In this document: piece after piece, positions 23,041-43,500 of the stretch | How the letters are laid out: each line of letters starts with the position of its first letter | Position numbering within the stretch: the first letter of the stretch is position 1 | From: Maribacter litopenaei | GTDB taxonomy: Bacteria > Bacteroidota > Bacteroidia > Flavobacteriales > Flavobacteriaceae | Direction: 5' to 3' | Assembly (NCBI RefSeq): GCF_025244665.1 | Contig: NZ_CP104205.1 | Location: forward strand, 1,237,001 to 1,301,000 | DNA: 64,000 nt | Notes under the pieces: generated by a model | The model's database searches: none | The model's input: only the letters and a program-made list of their open reading frames with translations | Told to the model about the DNA's origin: nothing | Program-made: the position numbers and the translations under genes

Positions 23041-24949
23041 TCATAGGGCCTCATCCATTATTTCCTGAACAATTTCGGGATTTAATAGCGTACTGGTATC
23101 CCCAAGATTAGATGTATCCTTACTTGCAATTTTACGCAGGATTCTTCGCATGATTTTTCCACTTCGTGTCTTTGGAAGTCCGGATACAAATTGGATTTTA
23201 TCCAGTTTGGCAATAGGGCCGATTTGCTCCGTAATCTGCTGATTGATTTCCTTCCTAAGATTATTTTTGTCCCTACTTTCGCCTGTCTCTTTCAGAATTA
23301 TGTACCCGTAAAGCGCATTCCCTTTTACATCATGTGGGAACCCGACAATGGCGGATTCGGCCACGGCTGGATGCTCATTGATCGAGTCTTCAATTGGGGC
23401 GGTACCCGGATTATGACCGGATACGATGATAACATCATCTACACGGCCCGTAATACGATAATATCCAACGGCATCTCGTAGTGCGCCATCTCCCGTAAAA
23501 TACATGTCTTCATAGGCGGAAAAGTAAGTGTCTCTATAGCGTTCGTGGTTGCCCCAAATGGTTCTCGCCATCGAAGGCCAAGGAAACTTTATGCAGAGTC
23601 GGCCATCAACCTGATTCCCTTTGATTTCCTTTCCGTTTTCGTCCATTAGAGCCGGTTGGATTCCAATAAACGGTAACGTTGCATAGGTTGGAGTAGTGGG
23701 CGTCACGTAAGGAATAGGGCTGATCATGATACCCCCGGTTTCCGTTTGCCACCAAGTATCTACAATGGGACTTTGTTTTTTTCCCACATTATTGTTGTAC
23801 CAATGCCATGCCTCTTCATTGATAGGTTCCCCCACGGAACCCAAAACCTTTAAGCTAGATAGGTCGTATTTTTCGACATAATCAAGATTTTCTTTCGCCA
23901 GGGCCCTAATCGCCGTTGGAGCTGTATAGAATTGGGTCACTTTATGCTTTTGGACCACTTCCCAAAACCGACCGTAGTCAGGGTAGGAGGGAACACCTTC
24001 GAACATAACAGTAGTAGCACCGTTGGCCAAAGGTCCGTAGACGATATACGAATGACCCGTTATCCATCCAATGTCGGCAGTACACCAGTAGACATCCTGT
24101 TCCCTATATTGAAATACATTTTTAAAGGTGTAGGCCGTATATACCATATATCCTGCGGTGGTATGTACCATGCCCTTCGGTCTTCCCGTGGAACCAGAGG
24201 TATAAAGAATAAACAAGGGGTCTTCGGCATTCATAATTTCCGCCACATTATCACCATATGCATCGTCTAATAAAGGTTGCAACCAGTAATCTCTTTCAGG
24301 AACCATTTCAATATCGCTATTGATGCGTTTTGCTACCAGCACATTTTCAACGCCAGGACAGGCTTCCGGGAGCCTTATCCACTATACCCTTTAGGTCAAT
24401 GGTTTTAGAACCCCGATAGGAACCGTCCGAGGTAATTACCAATTTACAGTCGGAATCATTGATTCGCGTAGCCAAAGCATTGGAGGAGAATCCAGCAAAT
24501 ACCACCGAATGTATGGCACCTATTCGTGCACAAGCTAATACGGATACCGCCAATTCCGGAATCATGGGGAGATAAATACAAACACGATCTCCTTTTTTTA
24601 TTCCTTTCTCCAATAACACATTGGCCATTTTACAAACCCTTTCGTGCAATTGTCTATAGGTAATATGCTCTGCTTCTTCTTTAGGGTCGTTGGGTTCAAA
24701 AAGAATGGCTGTTTTATTTCCCCTGGTAGGAAGATGACGGTCTATACAGTTTTCCGTAATATTTAACTGCGCACCCTCGAACCATTTGATCTCGGGTTTT
24801 TTGAAATCCCAGCTAAGGACATTGTCCCAGCGCTTTCGCCAAACAAAATGTTCCTCAGCAATTTCTTCCCAAAACGCTTCGGGATTACGAACCGATTTTC
24901 TATATACTTGATAATATTCCTCTAAATGTTTAATGTGATAGTTACTCAT
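23041..24949 (-). CDS. acs: Acetyl-CoA synthetase (one frame break)
   Basis: About 635 residues. ANL-family motifs: ILYTSGSTGRPKGMVHTTAGY, DTWWQTETGGIMI, TGDGALRDAVGYYRITGRVDD, and GLPKTRSGKIMRRILRK with the acetylation-prone lysine. Converts acetate, ATP and CoA to acetyl-CoA. The break at 24363-24370 (CTCCCGGAAG for CTCCGGAAG) joins DKAPEACPGVENVLVAKR. Lies 85 bp downstream of the SSS symporter, forming an acetate uptake and activation module. Confidence 0.94.
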
Positions 24950-24962
24950 TTTTGTATGCTGA

Positions 24963-24982
24963 TTTTACTCGATAATCGAAAT
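24963..24982 (-). promoter_or_regulatory. Motif upstream of acs shared with lepB
   Basis: On the + strand TTTTACTCGATAATCGAAAT, 14 bases from the acs ATG; contains the palindrome TCGATAATCGA. See the lepB copy at 16975. Confidence 0.35.
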
Positions 24983-25034
24983 TGAAAATATTCCAAATCA
25001 TATTTCGTCTTGGCTTTTAAAAATACGAATTAAT

Positions 25035-26728
25035 TTAATGGTCCACAGCTTCCCCTGCGCCGCTTGGGATTCTTATGTCCTCCACAATTTCCTGAACGTT
25101 TTCAGGTGGCGGTGGTGTGAGTTTCATGACAATAATGGATACAATAAAATTTACGAGCATGGCGATACTTCCAAAACCTTCCGGGAGATTCCAAACCACC
25201 AATCTTCCGAAGTGCCTCCTCCAAACCAGTCAAACTTAAATTTGGTCATATAGAATAACATCAAAAGCGTACCGGTAATCATACCTGCGATGGCCCCTTC
25301 CTTGTTCATTTTTTTATAAAAAATCCCAAGTACGATGGCCGGAAAAAAGGAAGCTGCTGCCAATCCAAAGGCCAATGCGACCACAGCGGCGACAAAGCCA
25401 GGTGGATTGATGCCAAAATAACCTGCAATTATTACGGCAACGGTAGCGGAAATACGAGCTGCCCGGAGTTCTCCTTTATCCGAAATATTGGGTTTGAACG
25501 TTTTCTTAATTAAATCGTGTGATACCGAAGCCGAAATCACCAATAATAACCCAGCGGCTGTAGACAGTGCCGCGGCCAACCCGCCCGCAGCTACCAAAGC
25601 GATGACCCAAGCTGGAAGGTTGGCTATTTCTCGGATTGGCTAATACCATAATATCCCGGTCTACGGTTAGTTCGTTGACAATGGTGTCCGCAACATATTG
25701 AATTTTTCCATCTCCGTTTTTATCGTTGAATTGTAAAAGGCCCGTGGTTTCCCAATTGGTAAACCATTCCGGCAAATCATTGTATTCCTTGTTATTGACC
25801 GTATTGATCATGTTGGTTCCGCAAATACCGAAACTGCGGGTGCCGTGGTATATAAAATAGCAATAAGCAAGAGTGCCAATCCGGCCGATTTTCTAGCGTC
25901 CTTGACTCTTTTTACCGTAAAGAATCGGACGATAACGTGCGGTAATCCTGCTGTGCCCACCATCAAGGCCAAGGTTATGGCAAAAACATCCGCCATTGAT
26001 TTAGAGCCATTGGTATAGGCATTAAAACCCAATTCCGTAGATAATCCATCCAATTTGTCCAAAAGATAGATTCCCGACCCATCGGCGAGTTTGGATCCCA
26101 TCCCCAGTTGCGGAATAGGGTTCCCGGTCATTTGAATGGAAATAAATATGGCGGGTACCATAAAGGCGAAAATAAGCACACAATATTGAGCCACTTGGGT
26201 ATATGTGATGCCTTTCATTCCGCCAAGGACGGCGTAGAAAAGTACGATGACCATCCCTATGATGACCCCTGTATTGATATCGACCTCTAAAAACCTTGAA
26301 AAAACCACACCCACTCCCCGCATTTGTCCGGCTACATAGGTAAAGGAAACAATTAGGGCACAGATAACGGCAACGATCCGGGCTGTTTTGGAATAGTAAC
26401 GATCCCCTATGAAATCCGGCACGGTGAACTTGCCAAATTTACGCAAGTATGGAGCCAACAAAAGTGCCAATAGGACATATCCGCCTGTCCAACCCATGAG
26501 GTAAACAGAACCATCATATCCGGCAAAGGCGATGATACCGGCCATGGAAATAAACGATGCAGCTGACATCCAATCTGCAGCCGTTGCCATGCCATTGGCC
26601 AATGGTGAAACCCCACCGCCGGCCACATAAAAGTCTTTGGTAGAACCTGCTCGAGACCAAATGGCAATACCGATATACAGGGCAAAAGTAATTCCGACAA
26701 GGAGGTAGGTCCAGACTTGAACGCTCAT
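25035..26728 (-). CDS. Sodium:solute symporter, VC_2705/acetate type (three frame breaks)
   Basis: About 560 residues and 13 predicted helices. [31 protein letters not shown] in overlapping segments, [15 protein letters not shown], and [21 protein letters not shown] are typical of the large subunit paired with DUF4212. Breaks: 25817-25821 (GCGGAACC for GCCGGAACC), 25629-25635 (CCGAGA for CCGGA; restores [14 protein letters not shown]) and 25181-25187 (restores [14 protein letters not shown]). The true end is [10 protein letters not shown] at 25035. Sodium-driven import of acetate or another short monocarboxylate. Confidence 0.87.
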
Positions 26729-26788
26729 ATTTTTTTAGTTTGATTGGTGTTTTGGTATTCGCAACATTTCATGAATAGTTTTAAAGGC

Positions 26789-27049
26789 CTATTCATCATA
26801 CCCATATTTTTTGTCCAGTTTGTTCATGAGACGGACATATACGAAAATCAGGATAACAAAAACATAGATAGATCCTTGCTGTGCAAACCAAAAACCCAGT
26901 TTGAAACCACCAACTTTTATTGTATCCAAAGCATCTTTAAAGAGGATTCCAGCCCCATAAGAAACCAAGAACCAAATTGTTAAAAGAATAAAAAGATATC
27001 TAACATTTTCCTTCCAGTATGCGGAAGCTCGCTTTTGTTTGTCGGACAT
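26789..27049 (-). CDS. DUF4212 small subunit of the sodium:solute symporter
   Basis: 86 residues with two transmembrane helices; YWKENVRYLFILLTIWFLVSYG and GFKLGFWFAQQGSIYVFVILIF are the family hallmark. Always paired with VC_2705-type SSS symporters, as here. Frame intact. Confidence 0.9.
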   Translation of the reverse strand: MSDKQKRASAYWKENVRYLFILLTIWFLVSYGAGILFKDALDTIKVGGFKLGFWFAQQGSIYVFVILIFVYVRLMNKLDKKYGYDE

Positions 27050-27093
27050 TACTAGGAATTGTATAATTAAGATAGAAATTTAATGAAAATACT

Positions 27094-28176
27094 TTAATTG
27101 GGTAAGAAAATGACCCCGCTCGACGAATCCCGTGTGGCACCCGTTACCGTTTTGAGTACGTTAACTTCCCTTTCCGACCTCAATACGCCCATAAAGGCAA
27201 AAACCAGCGCTTCCTTGAATTCGATTAATTTCTTTTCGGGAACCACTACATCTATATTAGAACTTAATTTTTGCCTTATTGTTTCAATAAGAAAGGAGTT
27301 AAGAGCGCCTCCTCCAGTAATCAGTAATTTTTGAGTCTTTTTGTTTGAATTTAAAGCCACTTGTTGGGCAATTTTTTCGCAGATATGATGAACGGCGGTA
27401 TGTAATAGATTTTCAGTACTATCTTCAGTATCGTCTACAATGGGAACCACTTCCTCCAAAAACCATTCATATCCTATGGATTTTGGATGTGGTAACAGAT
27501 AATAATTGAGGTCATTTAGTTTTTTTAACATGTTTGGGTTAATTGTGCCGGATTTTGCCAAAGCCCCATTTTTATCATAATCCAGTCCGATTTTTCTTGT
27601 GATATAATTCAATATCATATTCGCCAGGCCGATATCATAGGCAATTCTACTTCCTCTAGATTCAAAGGAAATGTTGCTGATTCCCCCAAGGTTCAGGCAG
27701 AAATCATACTCGCTGAAAAGCAATCGGTCACCAATAGGTACCAATGGCGCGCCTTGTCCACCCAAGGCGAGGTCGTTGCTTCTGAAGTCACAGATTACTT
27801 TATGTCCGGAAGCATTGGCCAAATGTTGTCCCGATCCTAGTTGAAAGGTAAATCCAAGTTCCGGTCTATGATGTGATGTATGGCCATGGCTGGCTATAAA
27901 ATCGACCTCCAAATCGTTTTGGGTAATGAAATCCTTGACATTTTTCCCAAGCCGGATACCATACTCGTTGTGTAGTAGCAGCAATTTTTCCGCCGATAGA
28001 TGGATGGCATCCTTTAGTTCGTTCTGCATTTCCTTTGAATAGGTTACGCTTTCTGTAGTTTTAATCTCAAACTCCCATTGGTCTTTCTTTCTCCGTAACT
28101 GACAATATGCGAGATCCAAACCATCCAATGAGGTACCGGACATTATTCCAACGACTTTATAAAGTTTCATGTTCAT
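27094..28176 (-). CDS. anmK: Anhydro-N-acetylmuramic acid kinase
   Basis: 360 residues. GIMSGTSLDGLDLAYC at the N-terminus, SHGHTSHHRP, GSGQHLANASGHKVICDFR segments, QGAPLVPIGDRLLF, LNLGGISNISF and LLITGGGALNSF. Opens the 1,6-anhydro bond and phosphorylates to MurNAc-6-phosphate. Start and stop overlap nagZ (TGATG). With murQ at 35449 it forms the classical recycling route. Frame intact. Confidence 0.95.
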   Translation of the reverse strand: MNMKLYKVVGIMSGTSLDGLDLAYCQLRRKKDQWEFEIKTTESVTYSKEMQNELKDAIHLSAEKLLLLHNEYGIRLGKNVKDFITQNDLEVDFIASHGHTSHHRPELGFTFQLGSGQHLANASGHKVICDFRSNDLALGGQGAPLVPIGDRLLFSEYDFCLNLGGISNISFESRGSRIAYDIGLANMILNYITRKIGLDYDKNGALAKSGTINPNMLKKLNDLNYYLLPHPKSIGYEWFLEEVVPIVDDTEDSTENLLHTAVHHICEKIAQQVALNSNKKTQKLLITGGGALNSFLIETIRQKLSSNIDVVVPEKKLIEFKEALVFAFMGVLRSEREVNVLKTVTGATRDSSSGVIFLPN

Positions 28177-29738
28177 CAGGTTAGGGATACAGGTAGCTTT
28201 CCATTCGCCTTTATTTTTCCCAAGAAATGTTCCGTGGCCACATCTTGAAATTCCGTAAAATCTTGGTAGACCAATACGGTGGCCAAAGAATTTTTGATAT
28301 CGAAAAGCTTCAAAGAATATGGGTTTCCAAAATGGTAAATGACCACGTTCTTTTCTTCAAGTATGGTGTTGATAAAATCGATTTCTTCTTGATAGAAGCC
28401 AAATTGGTTTGCGGGTTTTACCTTGGGCGGAGTTAGAAGTAAAAGAATATTTTTCTCCTCTTTTATTTCTTGTTTGGCTTCCTCCAAAAAAGTAAGGATT
28501 TCCTCGTGGGCAGCGTTTTCAAGAGTACGCTTCAAAGTGAGTGTGCAAAAAGTTTCTGAGCTAAACTCAGTAATATCGGCTTCGGTACCATGGTATAACG
28601 TAATGCTTTCTCTAGCGATTTGCCAGTTTAATGCTGCACTCTTGGATAGTTCCTTGAATTTATTTTGATACGGATTTCCCATAGCTTTTTCTTTGAGTTT
28701 CCATACCCGTTCAAAGGTTTCTTCCAGTTGATTTTCGGAAGCATTTTTTGCGATGATCCCAATACCCTCTTTTACATGTTCTGCAAAGCAAAGGATATCG
28801 TTCCCTGCATTATATGCTAGCCATTCCAGTTCACCAGGAACGGGATAGTTTTTTGACACAGCGTGCATGTTGAGGGCGTCTGAAATTACCACCCCTTTAA
28901 AATTCATTTCGCCCCGTAAAAAATCGGTAATTATATCTTTTGATATACTTGCAGGTTCCTGCTTTCCTTTGGCCAAGGCCGGAATGGACAAATGTCCAAC
29001 CATAACAGCATCCACACCTTCAGATATTATATTCTGAAAAGGATACAGTTCATTTTCCGTAAGTTCCTTTTTGGATTTGTCGATGACCGGAATCCCCGGA
29101 TGGGAATCTACGGATGTATCTCCATGACCTGGAAAGTGTTTGATGCTTGTCAATATTCCCGGACTCTCGGTTCCTTTTATATAAGCCAAGGCTTTTTGCG
29201 TTACTTGTTCCCTGTTATCACCAAAAGATCTATATCCAATAACGGGATTGTCAGGATTATTGTTAATATCTACAACCGGAGACAAATTCCAATGAATGCC
29301 AGCGGCCAAACAGTCGTGGGCAATGCTCTTACCCACTTCATAAACCAATTGCTTCTTACCTGTAAAAGCACCTAAGGTAATTGCGTATGGGTATTGGGGA
29401 GTATTCTCTATTCGCATGGCTAGGCCCCATTCCGCATCGATGGCAATAAAAAGTGGATATTTTGATACTGACTGATATCTTTTTATCAAGGATTTTAGAG
29501 TTTCAAAACTCTCCTCGTTGCGTAACACCTTCTTTTTTCCCTCAAAATTGGTAGCGGCACTAGCCCGGGAATGAAAAAAGCAAATACCACCAATTCCATG
29601 ATCCCTTATCAAATCCTCTAGGGCACGAATTTCATCTTCGGTATCATTGATGAACGCTGCCGGCATAAAGAACTGTCCAATCTTTTGGATAGGACTCAAG
29701 AGAGTTTTAGCATCGTTGTAAGTGGGTAGCTCCTTCAT
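28176..29738 (-). CDS. Glycoside hydrolase family 3, NagZ-like beta-N-acetylhexosaminidase
   Basis: 520 residues from ATG 29738 (MKELPTYNDAKTLL). N-terminal TIM barrel with IDAEWGLAMRI, NLSPVVDINNNP and the NagZ loop IKHFPGHGDTSVDSHPGIP holding the Asp-His catalytic dyad; VVISDALNMHAV carries the nucleophile Asp. A C-terminal domain of about 170 residues goes beyond short NagZ. No signal peptide is seen, so it is probably cytosolic and acts on imported GlcNAc-anhydroMurNAc. The start lies one base after the MFS stop. Frame intact. Confidence 0.88.
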   Translation of the reverse strand: MKELPTYNDAKTLLSPIQKIGQFFMPAAFINDTEDEIRALEDLIRDHGIGGICFFHSRASAATNFEGKKKVLRNEESFETLKSLIKRYQSVSKYPLFIAIDAEWGLAMRIENTPQYPYAITLGAFTGKKQLVYEVGKSIAHDCLAAGIHWNLSPVVDINNNPDNPVIGYRSFGDNREQVTQKALAYIKGTESPGILTSIKHFPGHGDTSVDSHPGIPVIDKSKKELTENELYPFQNIISEGVDAVMVGHLSIPALAKGKQEPASISKDIITDFLRGEMNFKGVVISDALNMHAVSKNYPVPGELEWLAYNAGNDILCFAEHVKEGIGIIAKNASENQLEETFERVWKLKEKAMGNPYQNKFKELSKSAALNWQIARESITLYHGTEADITEFSSETFCTLTLKRTLENAAHEEILTFLEEAKQEIKEEKNILLLLTPPKVKPANQFGFYQEEIDFINTILEEKNVVIYHFGNPYSLKLFDIKNSLATVLVYQDFTEFQDVATEHFLGKIKANGKLPVSLT

Positions 29739-29739
29739 A

Positions 29740-31005
29740 TCAATTAGAAGTTTTCTTTCCAAATTCAGGAGGATAGGAGATGTATTTTAACAGAATTAGA
29801 GCAGGTAATGCGGCAATCACCACCCATATGAAAAAACCATCATAACCTAACCATTGTTGCATATAGCCACTAATCATACCTGGAAGCATCATGCCGAGTG
29901 CCATAAATCCGGTTGCGATGGCATAGTGGCTGGTCTTGGATTTCCCTTCCGCAATATAGATTAGGTACATTAGAAAAGCTGCAAAACCAAATCCGTAGCC
30001 AAACTTCTCGAACATGACCGTAGCCGTAACCGGGACAACATGGGTCGTTTTTGTGATAGCCGAATTGCGTATAAGATATTAGGTAAATTAAGGGATAGTA
30101 CCATGGGAAGCATCCATTTTTTAAGTCCGTCCCTGGAAATCAGGATGCCTCCAAGAATTCCACCAAAGGAAAGCATAATGACCCCAGCCGTGCCAAAAAT
30201 TGTTCCGATGAGTTCAGTGGAGTACCCTAAACCTCCTTTATCTGTACTATCAAGCATAAATGGTGCGGCCATTTTTACCAACTGTGATTCCCCTAGTCGG
30301 TATGTCAAAATAAAAGCCGAGAGCGATACCGATGTTTTTCTTTTGAAAAAATGTTTTGAACACCTCTAGGAAGCTTTTCGGTTTTTCGTCAACATTCGAT
30401 GCTTCCGATTCATATTTTGGGGTCACAAAAAAGTTGGAGATGGTCAGCAGCAGCATTAAAACGGCCGCAGCTATCATGGTAATGCTCCATGCTTTAGAAT
30501 TGTCCCCATATTTGTTTTCCGGAAATCCCGCCATAATAACGATAAGCCCTTCTCCGGTCACCATTGCCAAACGGTAAAAGGTGCTACGCATGCCTACGAA
30601 AAAGGATTGCTTTTTTTCCGTTAACCCTAACATGTAATAACCATCCGAAGCGATGTCATTCGTGGCCGACGCAAAGGCGGCCATCCAAAAACAGGCCAAG
30701 GTAGTAACGAAAAACATGTTGGTAGGAATGCTGAGCCCTACTCCGAGTAAGGCAATGGCAATAACTAGCTGCATGGCCAAAAACCACTTTCGTTTGGTGC
30801 TTTTAAGGTCTACTAAAGGGCTCCGTGAGTGGTTTCAAAACCCAAGGTAAGTATAACCAACTGGTATAGAGTCCAATATCGGTATTGCTCACCCCCAACT
30901 GCTTGTACATGATAACCGAAACGGTCACCACCAAAACATAGGGCAAGCCTTGTGTAAAATATAAAATAGGACCCATCCCCAAGCGCCTTTATCCTTTTCT
31001 GCCAT
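29740..31005 (-). CDS. AmpG-like MFS transporter for muropeptides or wall sugars (multiple frame breaks)
   Basis: Reconstructed from four overlapping frames: YFTQGLPYVLVVTVSVIMYKQLG, KPLRSPLVDLKSTKRKW, ATNDIASDGYYMLGL, TYRLGESQLVKMAAPFMLD, GYDGFFIWVVIAALPALILL. The order and motifs match AmpG-type permeases. Breaks near 30980 (C-run), 30821-30830, 30315-30322 and 30059-30064; the last three fall on CCGGA/TCCGG. Embedded between GHL10 and nagZ, so import of anhydro-muropeptides or disaccharides is the likely role (context inference). Confidence 0.82.
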
Positions 31006-31020
31006 ACCCTGGTATTTGTT

Positions 31021-32518
31021 TTAAATGTAAGATTGTTGGTTGGGATTCCCTACCATTTCGATCCAAAAAGTAACGGCAAAATGATTCCCTGTTAAGATCG
31101 ATTTTGGGATTTGGATCTGATTTGTTTCTGTGTTTACGAAAATCTTATCCACAATTTTTTTGCTTTGTAGATTCGATGTATATTTTTTTCCCGATTTATA
31201 TACAAGTACATATCTGATTGCATCGTTGTGCGCTAAAGTCAAGGTCACATAATCATCCGATTGTATTTTGCCAATAATGTCGATGTTTTTCAGAATTTGC
31301 TTTTGTCCGTCGCTAATTTCAGGTGTCAAGGCCGGCCATTTGTAATACTTTCTTCGCAAATAGGAAACCACGTCCGGGTTATTTTCCATTAGGGATTTTG
31401 CACTGAAAATGATGTTTCCGGATACCTCCGGGGTCTGCCTCGCCAGTTTAAATTGGTTGGGCAATTCTTTCTTTTTTTCCAGGATTGATCGCTATTGTTT
31501 CGAACCTTGTAAGCCCCGTTTCCAATATAAATATTGCTATTACTACTGTTATTTGACCACCATTCTACTAGTGTTCGATGAGATGCCACCGGCATATCTG
31601 GACTCCAATAAATTTGGGGAGCAATGTAATCAAGCCAACCCTTTTCCATCCATAATAGTGGGTCTGCATATAGGTTTTCATAAGTGGTTTGTCCTGCTTG
31701 GGTATCAGAACCCCTCGGATCAGTGGACTTATTTTTCCACACACCAAATGGGCTAACTCCAAATTGTACCCACGGCTTATGCTCTTTAATGGTTTGGTAA
31801 CTTTTTTTAATAAGACTGTCAACATTGCTTCTTCTCCAGTCGGCTAAGGTTTGTTGGGGTTGTGAGCAGTTGTAATAGGTGATACTATCGTTAAAGACTT
31901 CATCTTTGATAGTGTAGGGGTAAAAGTAGTCATCATAGTGAACACCATCAATATTATAGGAAATCGTAAGTTCCTTTACCATTGAGATCAATTTTTTTGA
32001 ACTTGGGGATTTCCTGGATCATAGTAATATTTATTACCATATTTGACCATCCAGTCGGGATTCATGATATAATCATGGGTAGGACTTAGGATATCGGTAT
32101 TTAAATCGAACGTAGCTCTATAAGGGTTTAACCAGGCGTGGAATTCCAAACCACGAACATGTGCTTGATGTATCATCCATTGCAATGGGTCTTCTCCCCA
32201 CTTTGTGTTTTCCCCTTCCTTACCTGTTAAGAATCTTGACCAGGGTGCATATTCCGAATCATAAAAAGCATCTCCGGCCGCTCGTATTTGTACGATGACG
32301 GCGTTGTAGTTCAATTTTTGATAAAAATCTAAAATCTTAAGGTAGTCTTCCTTTTGTTTTTCTACGGAATCCAATCCATTTTTGGGCCAATCAATATTGA
32401 CAACGGTAGCTATCCAAACACCACGAAATTCCTTTTTTGGTTGTGGAATATTGGTAGTAAAGACTCCGCAGGAACTAACGATGGTCGCAATTAGAATTAT
32501 GAACAGCTTTTTGGGCAT
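31021..32518 (-). CDS. GHL10-type (family 10-like) glycoside hydrolase lipoprotein (two frame breaks)
   Basis: Lipobox IVSSCGVF, then the GHL10/DUF187 core: KEFRGVWIATVVNIDWPKNG, YNAVIVQIRAAGDAFYDS, EFHAWLNPYRA, YNIDGVHYDDYFYPY, GVSPFGVW, WLDYIAPQIYW. A C-terminal beta domain follows. The E. coli relative DigH cleaves denuded peptidoglycan glycans, and this genomic setting (anmK, nagZ, AmpG-like, nagB, murQ) points the same way. Breaks: an A-run near 31990 (seven, eight needed) and an A-run near 31473; neither is at CCGGA. Located 15 bp upstream of the MFS start. Confidence 0.83.
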
Positions 32519-32571: not shown

Positions 32572-34496
32572 TTAAAATTTATGTCTCACAAAAGCTTCCA
32601 TGGCAGCATATGAAGACATTCCCAAGGCTTTGTATTTGTTCGCAGTGTCCCTGTTTCGTTCCTCGGCGCGCATCCAAAATTCTCTCGGCGTCATCCCCTT
32701 GGAACATGACCCCATCCTTTTGGGATTGATGGCAAAAAATGGCATTTCGCTTTTTAAGGACTTGTCCCGGACTCATGGGTACACACATTTCTATCTCATT
32801 GATATCCCATTCGTGCCAAGCACCTCTGTATAACCATAACCAACAGTCTTTTATGAAAGGTTCCGGTTTTAATCGTTTTAGAGCCTCCGAACGGCATCCA
32901 AACATACCTTGTGGGTTCCGTGGGGGTCTGCCAAGTCTCCGGCGGCATATATTTGATGCGGCTTTATTTGTTTAATAATATCCATCATCAAAGCAATATC
33001 CTCTTCGGAAAGATTGTTCTTTTTTATGGTTCCCGTCTCATAGAATGGCAGATCCAAGAAATGAACATTGGCATCTTTCAGGCCCATATATCTCGGTAGC
33101 TGCATAGGACTCCGATCGCCTAATATTTCCCTTCAGTTTTCTTAATTCGGGAGAGTCAACCTGGCTTTCACTTTTTTTGTTGATGGAGTTTATAATTTCC
33201 TGAACTTTTTCGGAAGGGTTCAAGTTCATGGCAATCTCTGCAAATTTACGGGCGTCCGTATCGGAGACCGCTATATTTCCGAAGTTTGATACACTATGTG
33301 GACTTCATGACCCTGTTCTACTAATCTATCGAAAGTTCCTCCCATTGAAATTACGTCATCATCCGGATGTGGACTAAAAATGATGACACGTTTTTTAATG
33401 GGTTCGGCCCTTTCCGGTCTGTACGTGTCATCGGCATTCGGTTTACCTCCTGGCCATCCCGTAATGGTATGTTGTAGTTTGTTGAAAATTTGAATATTTA
33501 GGTCGTATGAATCCTCGTTGGAAAGAAGATCTGCCATGCCATTGTCGTTATAGTCCTTATCTGTGAGACTTAAAACGGTCTTACCGGTCTCTTCGCAAAG
33601 CCGGATGATGGCCTTGGCCTTAAGCTCTTCAGTCCATTCACACGCATCAACAAGCCATGGTGTTTTATTTTTTGTTAGTTCCGATGCCGCCCCGGTATCC
33701 AATATAAAGGTGCAATTGGAATGATTTTGCAAGTAAGTTGCAGGTACATGGGATGAAATTTCACCCTCAATGGTTTTCTTGATAATTTCCGCTTTGTTTT
33801 CACCCCAACCCAAAAGAACGATTCTTTTTGCTTTGCGAACAGTTGCGATACCCATGGTGATGGCCTTTCTCGGTACATTGGCAATTCCAAGGAAAGAAGG
33901 TGCAGCATCCACCCTGGTAATATGGTCCAAGGTTATGACCCTGGTTCCCGAATTGTAATGGGAGCCAGGTTCGTTGAACCCAATATGTCCAGTTCTACCA
34001 ATACCCAGTAACTGAAAATCAAGTCCGCCGTATTCTTTAATTTTTCTCTCGTAATCCAAACAATAGGCTACTGTATCTTCAGAAGGTACCATTCCATCTG
34101 GTATATGCACGTTTTCAGGGTCGATGTCAATATGATTGAATAGATGCTCGTGCATAAAGTAATGGTAACTTTGAATATTGCTTTTTTCCATGGGCAAATA
34201 TTCGTCAAGGTTAAAGGTTACCACATTCTGAAAGCTAAGTCCTTCTTCCTTATGCATTCTCACGAGCTCCTCATATACTCGAATAGGAGAGGAGCCTGTG
34301 GCGAGCCCCAAAACACATGTTCTGTTCTGACTTTGTTTTTTTCTGATGAGGTCGCAATCTCCTCCGCTACACGAATTGAGGCTTCGTTGGAATCAGAAAA
34401 AATCACATTGTGGATTTTTTCAAAGCGGGTTTCCTCAAACTGTCCAATAGGTTGATGGCTGATGTCCCTCTTTTTTTTGACCATTATGGTTTTCAT
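32572..34496 (-). CDS. nagB: Glucosamine-6-phosphate deaminase fused to a PIG-L/LmbE deacetylase domain (multiple frame breaks)
   Basis: N-terminal NagB: VLGLATGSSPIRVYEEL, TFNLDEYLP (catalytic Asp), GIGRTGHIGFNEPGS, SSHVPATYLQNH. C-terminal PIG-L domain from about residue 390: IIFSPHPDDDVISMGGTF (zinc His/Asp) and DPHGTHKVCLDA (zinc His), ending FVRHKF. Breaks: A-run near 34335, then 33277-33283, 33090-33096, 32885-32890 and 32681-32688, the last four all at CCGGA/TCCGG. NagB converts GlcN-6P to fructose-6P plus ammonia. The fused zinc domain may deacetylate GlcNAc-6P first; no nagA is present in the window (inference). First gene of the recycling operon. Confidence 0.88.
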
Positions 34497-34656: not shown

Positions 34657-34664
34657 TATATTTG
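34657..34664 (+). promoter_or_regulatory. Candidate -7 element for deoR-murQ
   Basis: TATATTTG, 27 bases before ATG 34692. No clear -33 TTG. Confidence 0.45.
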
Positions 34665-34691
34665 CCTGATTATCCATATGTATTAGTTAAT

Positions 34692-35441
34692 ATGTTAAAG
34701 GAAGAACGTCAACAAATACTCTTGAATGAAGTAGAGCTGCACAATAGAATTCTATTGACCGATATTGCGGAAAGCTTGGATGTGTCCATTGACACTATTC
34801 GTAGGGATGTAAAGGAACTGGATGCGGAGAACAAACTTAAGAAGGTTCATGGGGGAGCTATTTCTTTAGGATTTACCAATAGTAATAGCCGGAATACGAA
34901 CATTTATGCGTTAGATGAAAAAGTTGTTATAGCCCAAAAAGCGGTAACCTTACTTAAGGACGGTGCGGTCATTTTTATAGACGGAGGTACTACATGTTTG
35001 GAACTGGTGCGTTTGATTCCTGATAATTTAAAGCTTACCTGTTTTACCATTAGTTTGCCTGTTGCTATGGAATTATCGCATAAACCTAATGTTACTGTAA
35101 TCTCCATTGGGGGTCAAATTTCCAAGGAAGCCCAAATATCAATTGGTGCAAATGCCATTCATAATCTATCTGAAATAAGGGTGGACTATAGTTTTATAGG
35201 TACAGGATATGTCGATGCTGTTTATGGACTTACCGAGTTTGATTGGGATATCGTACAAGTTAAAAAAGCGGTCATAAAAGCAGCTAAAAAAACGGTTTTA
35301 TTATCCATTTCGGAAAAGCTAAATTCGCAGCATCGTTATAAAACCTGCGATATAAATACCATAAATACCATGATTACGGAATTGGATCCGTCTGATCGCA
35401 TGTTAGAGGTCTTTAGAAATCATGATATAAGAATCTTATAA
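34692..35441 (+). CDS. DeoR/GlpR-family transcriptional regulator
   Basis: 249 residues from ATG 34692. Winged helix at the N-terminus (LTDIAESLDVSIDTIRRDVKELD, KKVHGGAI) and a C-terminal sugar-phosphate sensor (IFIDGGTTCLELVRLIP, VISIGGQISKE). Such regulators release DNA on binding a phosphorylated sugar; GlcNAc-6P, MurNAc-6P or GlcN-6P are the obvious candidates here. Co-transcribed with murQ (7 bp gap) and divergent from the nagB operon, which carries the repeat operator. Frame intact. Confidence 0.9.
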   Translation: MLKEERQQILLNEVELHNRILLTDIAESLDVSIDTIRRDVKELDAENKLKKVHGGAISLGFTNSNSRNTNIYALDEKVVIAQKAVTLLKDGAVIFIDGGTTCLELVRLIPDNLKLTCFTISLPVAMELSHKPNVTVISIGGQISKEAQISIGANAIHNLSEIRVDYSFIGTGYVDAVYGLTEFDWDIVQVKKAVIKAAKKTVLLSISEKLNSQHRYKTCDINTINTMITELDPSDRMLEVFRNHDIRIL

Positions 35442-35448
35442 AAGCTTT

Positions 35449-36258
35449 ATGGAATACAAAAAAATAACTGAAACCCCTTCAAATCACGATAATTTGGAGC
35501 AGTTGGATACTATTTCCATCCTTCAGAAAATGAATGAAGAGGATAAGAAAGTGGCCGATGCCGTCACTTTAGTAATTCCACAAATAACCCAATTGGTAGA
35601 CGCCCTTGCGGAGCGCTTTGACAAAGGGGGACGATTATTTTACATTGGAGCAGGAACAAGCGGTAGACTAGGAATTCCGGATGCATCGGAAATACCTCCA
35701 ACTTTTGGCATGCCCCACGAACGAGTTATTGGCCTAATCGCCGGGGGTGATAGGGCCATTAGAAAGGCTGTCGAGAATGCGGAAGATGATACGCAACAAG
35801 CGTGGTTGGACCTTAAGGAACATGGAATAAACGAGTTGGATGTAGTGGTGGGCATAGCCGCTTCGGGAACGACACCTTACGTTATCGGGGGGCTAAAATC
35901 AGCCCAAGAACATCATATACTAACGGCCTGTATTACAAATAATCCAAACTCGCCCATTACCAAAGTTTCAGATATACCAGTAGAGGTAAATGTTGGGCCG
36001 GAATTTGTTACTGGTAGTACTCGAATGAAAAGTGGTACCTCACAAAAATTGGTATTGAATATGATATCTACAGCTCTGATGATAAAAATAGGTAGAGTAA
36101 AAGGCAATAAAATGGTAAATATGCAACTTACCAACCATAAATTGGTAGATCGGGGTACTAGATATATTGTGGAAGGCCTTGGTGTAAGTTATGGCCGGGC
36201 TGAGGAATTATTAAAAAAGCATGGCTCCGTTAAAAAGGCATTGGAAGCCGGGATTTAA
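35449..36258 (+). CDS. murQ: N-acetylmuramic acid 6-phosphate etherase
   Basis: 269 residues. SIS-domain motifs FYIGAGTSGRLGIPDASEIPPTFG (phosphate binding and catalytic Glu), VVVGIAASGTTPYVIGGL and GSTRMKSGTSQKLVLNMIST. Cleaves the lactyl ether of MurNAc-6P to GlcNAc-6P and D-lactate. With anmK it completes the recycling route. Slightly shorter than E. coli MurQ (about 298). Frame intact. Confidence 0.95.
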   Translation: MEYKKITETPSNHDNLEQLDTISILQKMNEEDKKVADAVTLVIPQITQLVDALAERFDKGGRLFYIGAGTSGRLGIPDASEIPPTFGMPHERVIGLIAGGDRAIRKAVENAEDDTQQAWLDLKEHGINELDVVVGIAASGTTPYVIGGLKSAQEHHILTACITNNPNSPITKVSDIPVEVNVGPEFVTGSTRMKSGTSQKLVLNMISTALMIKIGRVKGNKMVNMQLTNHKLVDRGTRYIVEGLGVSYGRAEELLKKHGSVKKALEAGI

Positions 36259-37529: not shown

Positions 37530-40500
37530 ATGCATCCATCACAACAGCGTAAATCGCTGTATGTACTTCTGCTGATTTTCTTTTCAGTGGTTGGCTCTAC
37601 GGCACTTGCGGATTCTAGCATTACCAAGATTTTTAGTGAGGTAACCCTTGCAGTGGAAAGGGTAGTCGAAAAAACGGTTTCCCGGAAAAAGACAGAAACT
37701 TTATCCGAGTCCAAAAATTCAATATCCACAAATTTAAAATCCCAATCCACTAAGGCGATGGCGCCGATGTTTGCAACCATTATCCAAGGAGCAGACGAAG
37801 AGGTTGGTTGTAGTACCAATGGATTTACGGTTGCCCGTTTTAATCTATGTGGTAACAGCGATGATAGAATTATTAGTTTATCGGGTGATCCATTTTCCTC
37901 GGTCTCATGGCAGATTTTGGGAGGGTCATGTTCCCCGGATATCAATAATGATTGCCCTAATACGGGATCCTGTTATTCACAAGTAGGCACAGGGCAAACA
38001 TTCAGTTTGGATGCTAGTACGGTCCCTGCAACCGTAGGTGCCGAGTATAGGGTAGTTGCAGATGGACAAATATATTATTTCAAGGTTAAAAAAAGTACCA
38101 TTAGTCAAACCTATGTAAAAGAGGACTATATATGTGATGTTCCAGGTCGGATTCAAATAACAAATTTGTCCAGTGCTTATGAATTCAGTATCGACAGTGG
38201 TAGTGGATTTGATCCATGGCAAGGTGCTATTTTTTCTAATTTGTCTCCAGGAACTTACATCGTAAAGGCTAGATTAAGAAATATTCCAAATACCTGTGAA
38301 TATCCTTATGAACCTATTGAAATTGTGGAAAGGTCATTAGACTTATCCGTAAACTTTACAGATATTAACTGTGCAGGGGAAACCGGTACCATAACCGTGA
38401 CACCTACTCCAGGACTTGGTCCCTACAAATATACCTTGTTGAACAGTATTGGGGTAGCACAGGAGTTTACGGCTTTTATTCCTGATGAAACATATACATT
38501 CTCTGCTGTAGGTTCAGGCACCTATATTGCACAAGTGGAAACACAGCAGTGTACGGGAGATCCCTTAAATGGAATAAATCCGCCAAGGATAGATGTGGAT
38601 ACCTTTGGAAACCCCATTACCATTGGTTCGCGAATAAATCCGTTGGACGCTTCTACCGAAGTAAATACAAGCTTTGGATGTTCAAACATTTCAAGTGTGG
38701 ATATAACGGTAAATACATCCGGAGGGTCTGCACCTTATACATTTACTGTCAACGGCGATCCTGCACAACCTTCTTATGGAAACCCGTCTACGGATACGGG
38801 TACTACTACATATACGGTAACATCGCCAGGAACGTATGATTTTATTATTACGGATAGCAATGGCTGTGTCATAACGGCATCATCCAACGTAGAGGACCTT
38901 CTTCCTCCTGATATAACAGCTACTGGTATTGATGGAACCTGTAGTAATGGTGGTGCCAAAATTAATTTCACAGTTAACGATGCAAGAGGGTATAACCTTT
39001 CTTATCGGGTAAATTCCGGTGATCCGTGGGTAACTGCACCGCAGATTTCAGTACCGGCAGGAACCTATAATGCCATAGAGGTAAGATATCAGCAAGGTGG
39101 ATTTGAGTGTACCATTACGTTGCCCCCAGTTACCGTGACCACGGTGGGGAATATCAATGGTTCGGCAACTAAGGTTTCCGATGTAACTTGTGATGGAAGT
39201 GGAGGTACCAATGGAGGGCAGATAGATTTTGTGGACCTTTTTCAGGAGGTTCCGGAAGCGGTTATGAATTCAGTATTGATGGTGTAAACTTTACGTCAAT
39301 TACTTCATATGCCAATTTATCTGCAGGAACATATACACCCATAATTAGGGATGGCGGTGGTTGCCGTTTGGAACTGACTCCCATAGATATCTTGGATGTA
39401 GATCCACCAACGGATCTGGACTTTGCGCAAAGTAATATTAGCTGTGCTGCCGGTACTTCGGATGTTACTTTGACTCCGACCTCTAATGCTCCCATCGTTA
39501 ACTATTCGGTCATAAGCCCTGTTTCCATTGATAATGGAAGCAATGCCACATTTGTAGGTTTGAGTACTTCAACATCCTACATATTTCAGATTACTGATGC
39601 CAACAATTGTACATATACTGAAGGATTTAGTCCGGCGGTAATCAGTTCCATTAGGGCGCGAGTGAAATCAGGAGGGGATTTAAGAGTATGTAGTGGTGCT
39701 ACCGATGGCACGGGTACATTTATTATCGATGGTTTTGCCAATAATTATACTTACGAGATAAATGGAGGACTTTACTCAGGTGGACCACAAAATGACGCCG
39801 AAGTGGCTTTGCCGCTTTCGGGAATCGGAACCTATACCATTACTGTAACCGATGCAGATACCGGTTGTACCGATACCGCTTCCTTCGATATTGTTGATGC
39901 ACCAGCTTTGGACATAAGCGGTAGTACCGTAACCCCAATGAGCTGTGCCAATGGAAATGTGGGAGGTGTGCGTGCCAATTTCACTGGTGGTTGGGGAGGT
40001 AATAGATATACGTTAACGACACCATCGGGTACAATAGGTCCAAAATCGGAAGGACTTTTAGTAACCTTACTTTGCCGGGAACATATACATTAACGGCAGA
40101 AGATGCTGAAGGTTGTACAGATACTTTTACGTTTGATCTTACACCTATTGACGCTCCGACTTTAAGTTTGGACAACGCGGCATCCGATTTTTGTTATGTT
40201 CCAGGAACCGGAGCAACCGCCGTGGTGACTTCCGCTGCTGGTACAGCTGCATTGGGAACCCATGAATATCGGATTAATGGAGGCTCATTGCAACCTACAG
40301 GGACCTTCAATGGTCTTACTCCCGGTAATTATACAATTGAAGTAGTGGATGGCAATAACTGTAGTGATTCCATCGTAATTACTATAGAACAACAGTTAAG
40401 AGTAAATACTGCAGTTGTCACCGAAATACCCTGTGGTGGCTCACCCGGTCAGATTAGAGTAGACGTTACAGGAGGATATGCTTCAGGAACTGGATTGTAC

Positions 40501-43500
40501 GAGGTAAGTTCAGATAATGGATTGACTTTTAGCGCACCAACTCCCTATACATCCAGTACGTTTTTCTATGATACCGCTGTGGACGGAACATACGTATTTA
40601 GAATCACGGATAATAATACCACAAATACAGGATGTGAGGCAACATCGGCACCACTTATACTAAATCCACCAGCGAATATTGCGGCTGCTTCGGTTATAAC
40701 CCGGCCAGTAAGTTGTGGGGCGCCCAACAACGGGGTTGTAACTATTATTCCGGATGGTACAAGTGGGGTGCCACCATATGAAGTAAACTTTAACGGTATG
40801 GGGTGGACCTCACAAACCGTTTATTCCGACTTGCCCGCTGGTACCTATCCATTTTTGGTAAGGGATGCCGGAGGCTGTGAAACGGCTCCCGCAAATGCAG
40901 TCGTTGGAACCGATACAACCTTGCCACCGGATGCTTCCGTTAGTCAAGACCCAGCCATTTGTAATGGTAGTGGGACGGTAAGTGGAGGTATCATCATCAA
41001 CGGGGTAACCGATGGAACGGCAAATTTTGATTTCCGTATCGAGGACAATACGGGTACAGAAATAACACGATTGGAAAATCAATCCTCTTTTCCGGTTACC
41101 ATAAATGATATTAATTTGGTTCCAGGTGATTATACGGTTATAACACTCGATGCCAATGGATGTACTGATATCGACACGGTAACCATTACATCCAATGATG
41201 TTATCATTACCCCAATATTACCACCTTTGCCTCCAACCTGTGACGATAGTGGTTTCACTTATGCAGTGAGTGTTAGTGGTGGTTCAGGCTCCTATGAGAT
41301 AAAGTTGTCACAACAACCTTCTTTCTATCCTTTGAACAATACTCCGGGTGTTAATGATCACACTTTTAGTAACGTTTCAGATGGAATACAATACGGAATT
41401 GCCTACACAGTACAGGTTAGGGATGTGATAACAGGATGTTTGTATGAACAGGAAATACCGCCTGTAGACGCCCCTTCCACCTTGGAAATTACGGCTTCTT
41501 CTACACCAGGCGCATGTGATGTCAACAGAAATGGGGAGATTGCCTATCAGGTAATAGGATATACGATTGGTGATGTATTGAGGATAGAATTATTGAATAA
41601 TGATACAAACACCACAACGGTAATTGTACCATCTTTTACAACTACCGCTTTACCATATAACAATACCTACCCGAATTGCCAGGAGACTATCAAATTATAG
41701 TTGTAAACGAAACGGATACCTGTAGGGATGCTACGAGTGTAACCATAGATCAAAACTTACCGGCTATAGATGTAATCTCCGATGTACCTGCAAATTGTAA
41801 TGCTTTCGGACAGATTACGGTACAAGGCCGAGGAGGTTACGGAGATCCATATGAATATGCTTTTGTTCCCGATGGTTCGCCGAACCTGCCTACCCAGCAG
41901 ATTATGTAAGTACAACGACGTTTGTGGGCCCTGCAGGGGATTACGATATTTATGTTCGTGATAGTGGTGGTTGTATTTCCTTTGATATTGCAACGGTTAT
42001 CCAATTGGACCTGAGACCTTCCGGTACCCACGTTTACAGTGGTTAACCAGTGTAATCCCAGTTCAACTGCATTTGATATTACGGTAGCAATGCCAAATTC
42101 GGTGAACACACCTCGTTTTACGTTGGCAGGGGATGAACAAATACCAACAGATGATGGGACTAATTGGGTATATACCTTTACTGTGGCTAGCCCAGGTGAT
42201 TACGTTGTAGATGTGGTAGATGCGAATGGATGTACCAGCCAAGGTACGGCAACTGTTTATAATTTCCTTTCGGCAACAGGTACATTTTCAACGGATTCAA
42301 CGTGTAACGATGCCGATGGAGAGATAACCATCGCTACCTTTGGAGGTAGTGGTGATTTTGGCTATATCTTAACAGGAACCGATTATACAGGAGCTTCCAT
42401 ATGATCCTATTACACAAGAAGATAACCCGGTATTTACAGGACTTGCCCCAGGACCTATGATGTCCTCGTGGTAGATAGAATCATGTTCGATGGAACTAAT
42501 TTCTGTGAATACAACGTTTCCGGAATCAATTTGAATCAGGCAGCACAACCAATTATTACCTCTGAATTGGCGACTGATATCACTTGTAGAGACAGCAATG
42601 ATGGAACTATTGAGGTGGTTGTTGGACCTGCAAATGTATTGGTGCCGTTTACATCAGAAGACACACCTATCACCTATATTCTGAACAACCTTACCACTTC
42701 TTCAGAACATGCGCGTAACAATACGGGAACGTTCTCAGATTTGCCTCAAGGGGATTATCAGGTACAAGTGGTGACACAACGTGGATGTGAGGTATTATCA
42801 GCGGTTCATACAATTACTAATCCGGCAGACTTTAGCATAACCGCTTCTGCACCTGATTTTGCTTGTGAGCCAGGGGCAAATCGCTACAGTTCTACGATCA
42901 TTACGGTAAATGTGGTGGATCCCGGAACTATTGGTTCCGGATATCAATATAGTATCACAGGTTTTTCAAACTATCAATCTGGTAATACCTTCGAAATTGT
43001 GGACAATGGTTCGCCACAAAATGTCACAGTTTATGCCATTGACGGGAATGGATGTCAAACAACATTTGATTTGCCCACCATCAATCCACCAACGGATGTT
43101 GTACCAACATTAAGTGTTGTGAGTCCTTTGGATTGTGCCAACGAGGAACAAGTCAGAATTGATGTAGTGGGCACTACAGATTTTACCATAGTCACCAATT
43201 CAGTAGTTCCAGTTGCCAATGTAAATGTTAGTGGGCAATCTTTTGGGCTTGTTAATTTACCGGCTGCCGGTGATTATCTATTCGAAATTGTGGACAACAC
43301 AGGAGGATGTACGTATCCATTACCGGTACATTCCGTTAATGAGCCACAATTGCCTACGGCTTTCATTTCTGAAGCTAAACCAGTGAGTTGTTTCGGAACC
43401 AATGATGGTGAGTTGTTCATTGAGGTAACGGACTATGTTGGAACGTATAACTATACGGTCTATATGGCAGATGATACCACTAAAAGTACTCCGATTGCAT

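Follow-up and report, generated by a model that had tools for sequence, protein, structure and literature searches.

The locus considered here lies in a 64,000-nucleotide stretch of DNA from Maribacter litopenaei (the window, by which we mean the whole of that stretch), and it raises the question of which protein removes acetate from GlcNAc-6P in this organism. AnmK and MurQ convert 1,6-anhydroMurNAc into GlcNAc-6P. Both are encoded at the locus, AnmK in a row of genes that begins with a fusion of NagB to a PIG-L deacetylase domain, and MurQ adjoining that row divergently; the locus thus encodes a source of GlcNAc-6P. In a published pathway reconstruction, NagA is placed between GlcNAc-6P and NagB, and a gene is called nagA where it clusters or co-occurs with nagB (PMC5583593). 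We propose that the fusion is a putative bifunctional enzyme, with GlcNAc-6P deacetylase and deaminase on a single polypeptide, that replaces NagA in Maribacter, a reading argued from sequence and predicted fold, to which we would give a probability of roughly 0.6.

The whole fusion gene occupies 32572..34496 on the minus strand; its ATG is at 34496, and its stop codon ends at 32572. The NagB half lies at approximately 33650..34415 (minus strand), as judged from the TIGR00502 match of a congener ortholog (L012) and from the positions of its motifs. These are NLDEY, with the catalytic Asp, at 34212-34198, and GRTGHIGFNEP, with the catalytic His and Glu, at 33999-33967, both on the minus strand; we take these catalytic roles over from work on E. 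coli NagB. A conserved linker, TGWPGGKPNADD..RPERA (33401..33480, minus strand, approximate bounds), forms a conserved block in alignments A1 and A3. The PIG-L half covers 32572..33400 (minus strand, approximate start), as placed by the PF02585 match of L012 and the fold matches of the Maribacter arcticus ortholog. The preliminary description of the window had stated that this C-terminal half keeps HPDD and PHGTH, and both are indeed present, with the HPDDD codons at 33372-33355 and the PHGTH codons at 32925-32911 (minus strand). On the model of MshB and BshB, the HPDD and HxxH residues are presumably those that serve zinc binding and catalysis. The absence from GRTGH of Asp141 (E. coli NagB numbering) was considered as a fatal defect of the NagB half and rejected, as B. 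subtilis NagB has Asn there; in the alignment, this Asn stands against Thr169 of the fusion, before the GH of the active-site loop.

In the M. litopenaei assembly, the fusion gene is interrupted by five frame-breaking, single-base indels relative to the congener G007 (near 34353, 33280, 33098, 32891 and 32689), and its pieces fall in different frames. The gene is a single open frame in all 12 of the 12 same-genus genomes, in which the protein has 641-642 amino acids counted from the first Met, and the adjoining GHL10 and MFS genes of the window are split as well. For these reasons, the breaks look like assembly errors and not decay, and the view of the window copy as a pseudogene was rejected. 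Raw indel counts cannot settle this point: in the alignment of the window to G007, 30 of 34 indels are not multiples of three, and the same comparison of the same region in two congeners with intact fusions gives 19 of 20. How such breaks arise can be seen in a nanopore-only Maribacter assembly, not claimed to be of the same strain (PMC10942906).

The fusion architecture itself is already known, since L012 exceeds the cut-off of a named family (1066 bits to NF002557, cut-off 384, whole-length match), catalogued as NF002557 / PRK02122 'glucosamine-6-phosphate deaminase-like protein'. This family has the same two-domain architecture over its whole length, and the Maribacter fusion is a member of it; the M. 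arcticus ortholog (L095) scores 1047.3 bits against the same cut-off of 384, and the frame-broken window copy gives a best E of 5.2e-237. The family name assigns no role to the C-terminal half, and the replacement of NagA goes beyond what the name says. Taken separately, the two halves of L012 exceed the equivalog cut-off of nagB TIGR00502 (265.2 bits, cut-off 236.9) and the cut-off of Pfam PIG-L PF02585 (71.9 bits, cut-off 28.2, with the HPDD and HxxH motifs present). Neither TIGR00221 nor any amidohydrolase family was found in the fusion by hmmscan at E<=0.001, and by profile the fusion is not BshB, the PIG-L deacetylase of the bacillithiol pathway (36.4 bits to TIGR04001, cut-off 182.5; 33.4 bits to TIGR04000, cut-off 195.25). 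The nearest other named loci, from Maribacter (L093-L096), encode proteins 80-87% identical to L012, and the last 550 residues of the protein from one further congener (L022, in G009) are identical to those of L094 from an uncultured Maribacter sp. Both halves are equally conserved, with mean identities to the consensus of 0.702 and 0.706.

On the minus strand, the fusion gene is followed by a frame-broken GHL10 family glycosyl hydrolase-like gene (31021..32518; PF02638 on two pieces), a frame-broken AmpG-like MFS transporter gene (29800..31020, bounds estimated from congeners), a GH3, beta-N-acetylhexosaminidase-like gene (28176..29762; PF00933, and 154.5 bits to NF003740, under the cut-off of 207) and the gene for AnmK, anhydro-N-acetylmuramic acid kinase (27094..28176; PF03702, and 523.6 bits to NF007144, cut-off 436). 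The scored, 176-residue piece of the transporter (30250-30780) has its best match in TIGR00901 (AmpG), at 62 bits, under the cut-off of 350. Divergent from this row, on the plus strand, lie a DeoR-family regulator gene (34662..35441; PF00455 and PF08220) and the gene for MurQ, N-acetylmuramic acid 6-phosphate etherase (35449..36258; 303.1 bits to TIGR00274, cut-off 302). The same order recurs in five of the 80 named loci (L094-L098; three from Maribacter, two from Allomuricauda), with AnmK following in four of them; L094 ends before AnmK.

The preliminary description had also reported that no nagA is seen in the window and had proposed a genome search. The observation was right and extends to the whole genome, in which TIGR00221 gives partial matches only, of at most 28.1 bits (cut-off 225.65). 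Nor does any of the 12 congeners have a match over that cut-off; across 21 genomes, the sole nagA carrier by TIGR00221 is G020. A second profile, A2, comprises 16 of 20 fetched Bacteroidota NagA-like proteins (L082, L086, L091 and L092 were left out), and with all first-look candidates scored it reached no more than 37.6 bits in any of the 13 genomes, the window's own and those of the 12 congeners. As a control, ten NagA sequences from the PDB reached at least 275 bits with A2, the next protein reaching 63 bits; B. subtilis NagA (2vhl) scored 321.5 bits. Just outside the window, at genome positions 1234338-1236968, are amidohydrolase-like proteins with at most 28.1 bits to the nagA profile, which by score are not NagA. 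A NagA has been listed for Maribacter halichondriae from RAST and BV-BRC annotation (PMC10942906); none was found in the 13 genomes searched here, among which M. halichondriae is not necessarily included. Among 26 named fusion genomes hand-picked from the 80 loci (completeness not given), A2 at E<=1e-20 found no match in 15, including M. arcticus, Maribacter algarum, Flavobacterium hercynium, F. pectinovorum, Capnocytophaga catalasegens and Christiangramia sabulilitoris, and a match in 11. One of the 11 is F. johnsoniae CI04, in agreement with the report of Fjoh_3974 as the NagA of that species (PMC5127042).

Because nagA was not found and a GlcNAc-6P source is encoded at the locus, the replacement of NagA by the fusion is the best explanation in Maribacter; the PIG-L half is the best candidate seen for the missing step, being joined to the enzyme that acts next and having kept its site. 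In the mechanism that we have in mind, AnmK and then MurQ, from genes at the fusion's own locus, would supply GlcNAc-6P from 1,6-anhydroMurNAc; the C-terminal PIG-L half, as a zinc deacetylase, would take acetate off GlcNAc-6P; and the N-terminal NagB half would convert the resulting GlcN-6P to fructose-6P and ammonia. The PIG-L half would in this way be a non-orthologous replacement of the amidohydrolase NagA (TIGR00221), carrying out the same reaction at the same step, although the fusion has no TIGR00221 match and instead has a PIG-L domain and fold. That the PIG-L half deacetylates GlcNAc-6P is in our view probable; GlcNAc-6P as the substrate, the part played by zinc and the order of the two reactions are what we infer, and a channelling of GlcN-6P between the halves would be a guess. 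Should the proposal be correct, the route would be complete in Bacteroidota with the fusion and without nagA, annotations made on the presumption of a NagA would have to be re-examined, and the C-terminal half of a catalogued family would gain a function. The NagA step would then have a second solution, unrelated to the first and joined to NagB, by which GlcNAc-6P enters glycolysis via one protein.

The predicted fold supports the assignment of both halves. The AlphaFold2 prediction for the M. arcticus ortholog has a mean pLDDT of 90 and a pTM of 0.78, and its NagB half superimposes on B. subtilis NagB 2bkv with Z 36.9 and an rmsd of 1.0 over 242 residues at 42% identity; the latter enzyme is monomeric and, unlike the fusion, has no deacetylase joined to it. 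The modelled PIG-L half resembles the archaeal N,N'-diacetylchitobiose deacetylase (Dac; 3wl3, Z 21.8) and BshB (Z 21.2) about equally, and the tie persists when the half is folded alone (BshB Z 21.6, Dac Z 21.1). BshB acts on a substrate other than GlcNAc-6P. That BshB fits the fold as well as Dac therefore counts against the GlcNAc-6P reading. Dac, which is typified by an oligomer in which the neighbouring subunit contributes a catalytic His, is about 21-24% identical to the PIG-L half in structural alignments. Dac has a His-Asp-His zinc triad (PMC9779004) and deacetylates an amino sugar in catabolism (PMC6566704), as the PIG-L half is proposed to do, but it has no NagB joined to it and works on unphosphorylated (GlcNAc)2 and GlcNAc.

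These likenesses lead to the alternative that the PIG-L half deacetylates some other amino sugar, be it GlcNAc, chitobiose or a muropeptide-derived saccharide, and that a kinase then supplies GlcN-6P. The closest folds are those of Dac, which acts on (GlcNAc)2 and GlcNAc (PMC6566704), and of BshB, and the frequency of a GH20 cluster beside the fusion elsewhere also speaks for this alternative. The GH20, GH92, fucosidase and DUF5009 neighbours are at the same time in keeping with the GlcNAc-6P reading. When the genes within 4.2 kb of 200 fusion loci were clustered, the commonest neighbour was a GH20 cluster (34 of 200), followed by GH92 (21), AmpG-like MFS (21), another MFS (18), fucosidase (17), GHL10 (16), MurQ (13), DUF5009 (12) and AnmK (8); the clusters were named by Pfam from one representative each, except for GHL10, identified by its similarity to the window gene, and MurQ, which carries its BLAST label. 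Against this, AnmK and MurQ at the window locus deliver a GlcNAc-6P that is already phosphorylated, and the NagB to which the half is fused acts on a 6-phosphate. We consider this alternative unlikely, and keep to GlcNAc-6P deacetylation as the function of the PIG-L half.

The open-licence literature contained no paper found under a PIG-L or LmbE name for the fusion, and among the matches listed, as far as these sources go, there was no assay of its deacetylase half. We take BT0258, on the basis of UniProt, to be the Bacteroides thetaiotaomicron member of the fusion family. In a table of the iron stimulon, BT0258-59 appear as 'Glucosamine-6-phosphate deaminase, aminohydrolyse' (PMC10434189). 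In F. johnsoniae, deletion of the nagB of the ChiUL left growth on chitin unchanged, three further nagB-like genes being present, and expression of the ChiUL NagB in E. coli did not succeed (PMC5127042); Fjoh_4557 of this organism is not necessarily a fusion. Flaviramulus ichthyoenteri is described as having NagA together with NagB and as using GlcNAc (PMC4324048). Maribacter algarum strain 4-528 was negative for fermentation of N-acetylglucosamine, as of other sugars (PMC12313589), a result that says nothing about cell-wall recycling.

Beyond the genus, the fusion and nagA were sought in 392 genomes of the phylum, drawn at a completeness of at least 95%, plus the window's own. The fusion was over its cut-off in 171 of the 392, and nagA was matched at E<=1e-30 in 77, in 65 of them over cut-off. 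No nagA match was seen in 124 of the 171 fusion genomes, a figure that is an upper bound because at most four top first-look candidates were scored per genome and the B. subtilis control gave no match at 1e-30. Bacilli are reported to carry nagAB (PMC3648570). The remaining 47 fusion genomes have a nagA match, 39 of them over cut-off, so that the earlier suggestion that the fused PIG-L domain may replace NagA holds as the best explanation in Maribacter and may not apply more widely. A further 57 genomes had a NagB-type match that stayed below the cut-off, G404 being among them with a fusion truncated by the end of its contig; 29 of the 57 were without nagA, which counts against the replacement, and 28 had it. 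The nagA split differs between these and the 171 fusion genomes with a Fisher p of 0.003, shared ancestry being ignored. Where there was neither a fusion nor a NagB-type match, nagA occurred in 2 of 164 genomes. It is a more tentative proposition, which we would not put at even odds, that the PIG-L half may be the main GlcNAc-6P deacetylase across a large part of the Bacteroidota, acting on GlcNAc-6P from wall recycling and from chitin or glycans, with GlcN-6P possibly passed on directly.

MurQ was found in 299 of the 392 genomes, including 169 of the 171 with the fusion. The expectation that every MurQ genome needs either NagA or the fusion failed, as 101 of the 299 show neither; 22 of these (G404 included) have a sub-cut-off NagB-type match and 79 have no NagB match, NagB having been sought via NF002557 only, on up to three candidates per genome, with SIS-type NagB-II outside the search. 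These 79 genomes, with MurQ present and matches to NagB and nagA absent, are the reason for thinking that deacetylation of GlcNAc-6P is not required throughout the phylum and that this sugar phosphate may have another fate in part of it. They also lend something to a second alternative, in which the function of the PIG-L half is separate or regulatory, genomes without nagA divert GlcNAc-6P (to UDP-GlcNAc, for instance) or rely on a deacetylase that has escaped recognition, and the NagB half alone is catabolic. This would agree with the finding that nagA adjoins intact fusions in a few Flavobacterium, and with four loci (L212, L240, L323 and L328, two of them in nagA-bearing genomes) that have lost the NagB residues D98 and H171 (D98Y, H171N) with the PIG-L site intact; these four are perhaps deacetylases with a dead NagB domain that acts as a sugar-phosphate sensor.

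The conservation of the active sites argues to the contrary. Residues were read at 275 fusion loci (271 distinct proteins), of which 180 came from the survey, 15 from closer relatives and 80 from named genomes; the survey loci represent 144 of the 171 fusion genomes, including all 47 that bear nagA, and the 27 survey genomes left out include the window's own. The PIG-L residues H377, D379, D380, H526 and H529 (L012 numbering) are all intact at 270 of the 275 loci, the exceptions being L150 (D379), L171 and L254, which are the same gene (H526), L305 (H526) and L026 (H529); the NagB residues D98, H171 and E176 are likewise intact at 270 of 275. This retention of the motif residues suggests that a catalytic site is under selection, and there would be little reason to keep a deaminase that has no supply of GlcN-6P. 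We regard such a separate or regulatory function as quite improbable, and the fusion as a GlcNAc-6P deacetylase joined to a GlcN-6P deaminase remains the reading that we prefer. The third alternative, that a divergent NagA was overlooked and the PIG-L half is redundant, is very improbable, for although the phylum survey scored only the top four candidates per genome and missed its B. subtilis control at 1e-30 despite the presence of nagAB in Bacilli (PMC3648570), A2 detects B. subtilis NagA readily and, with all candidates scored, finds nothing comparable in the window genome and its 12 congeners.

In genomes that carry nagA besides the fusion, the two proteins may divide the task between them or act on separate pools. 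The PIG-L site is intact in 65 of 67 fusion copies from nagA-bearing genomes (L026 is counted with these, since its genome, G020, has nagA) and in 127 of 128 other copies from the survey and the relatives. Comparison of the relative divergence of the PIG-L half with and without nagA inside the families f1, f31 and f11 showed no difference; pooled over families, the half is relatively better kept with nagA (p 0.0006), a result confounded by family. The distance between nagA and an intact fusion is 18-59 bases in Flavobacterium limicola, F. segetis and G086, and larger in G263, G346 and G364. In all, 7 of the 275 loci hold nagA (L068 and L129 are the same gene), which is not a rate, because the flanks read at each locus differ in length (some 1.5 to 10 kb, shorter where a contig ends) and longer stretches were taken for G263 and G364 in the knowledge that nagA was near.

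One lineage departs from this pattern. In the family of G020 (L343-L347), the PIG-L half of the fusion is decayed in all four genomes and the NagB half in three of them. All four genomes have nagA, and all four fusions have H529Q (the second His of HxxH) and have lost D381, reading HPDDA and DPHGTQ. At the position of the NagB His, two of them have Ser, one has Asn and one keeps the His. A separate NagB adjoins the fusion in three of these genomes, and the fourth, G437, has a second NagB motif within the same locus. To judge by these residues, the fusion in this family is probably a pseudoenzyme in the making. The PIG-L site appears to have been lost first in G439, as the NagB residues are intact there and the PIG-L site is not. 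Such decay fits what would be expected had NagA made the PIG-L site redundant; it is one event in one lineage and not a rule, because 65 of the 67 copies from nagA-bearing genomes keep the site.

Some further features of the window may be recorded. Frame-split genes extend across 23041-32518 and include, besides the MFS and GHL10 genes, an acetyl-CoA synthetase-like gene (23041-24949) and a symporter-like gene (25151-26728), the last two recognised by eye. The completeness of the genome is listed as 81.68%, which uncorrected indels could cause. Also by eye, the region 37530-41700 contains long plus-strand open reading frames, split among three frames, that resemble repeated adhesin-type segments.
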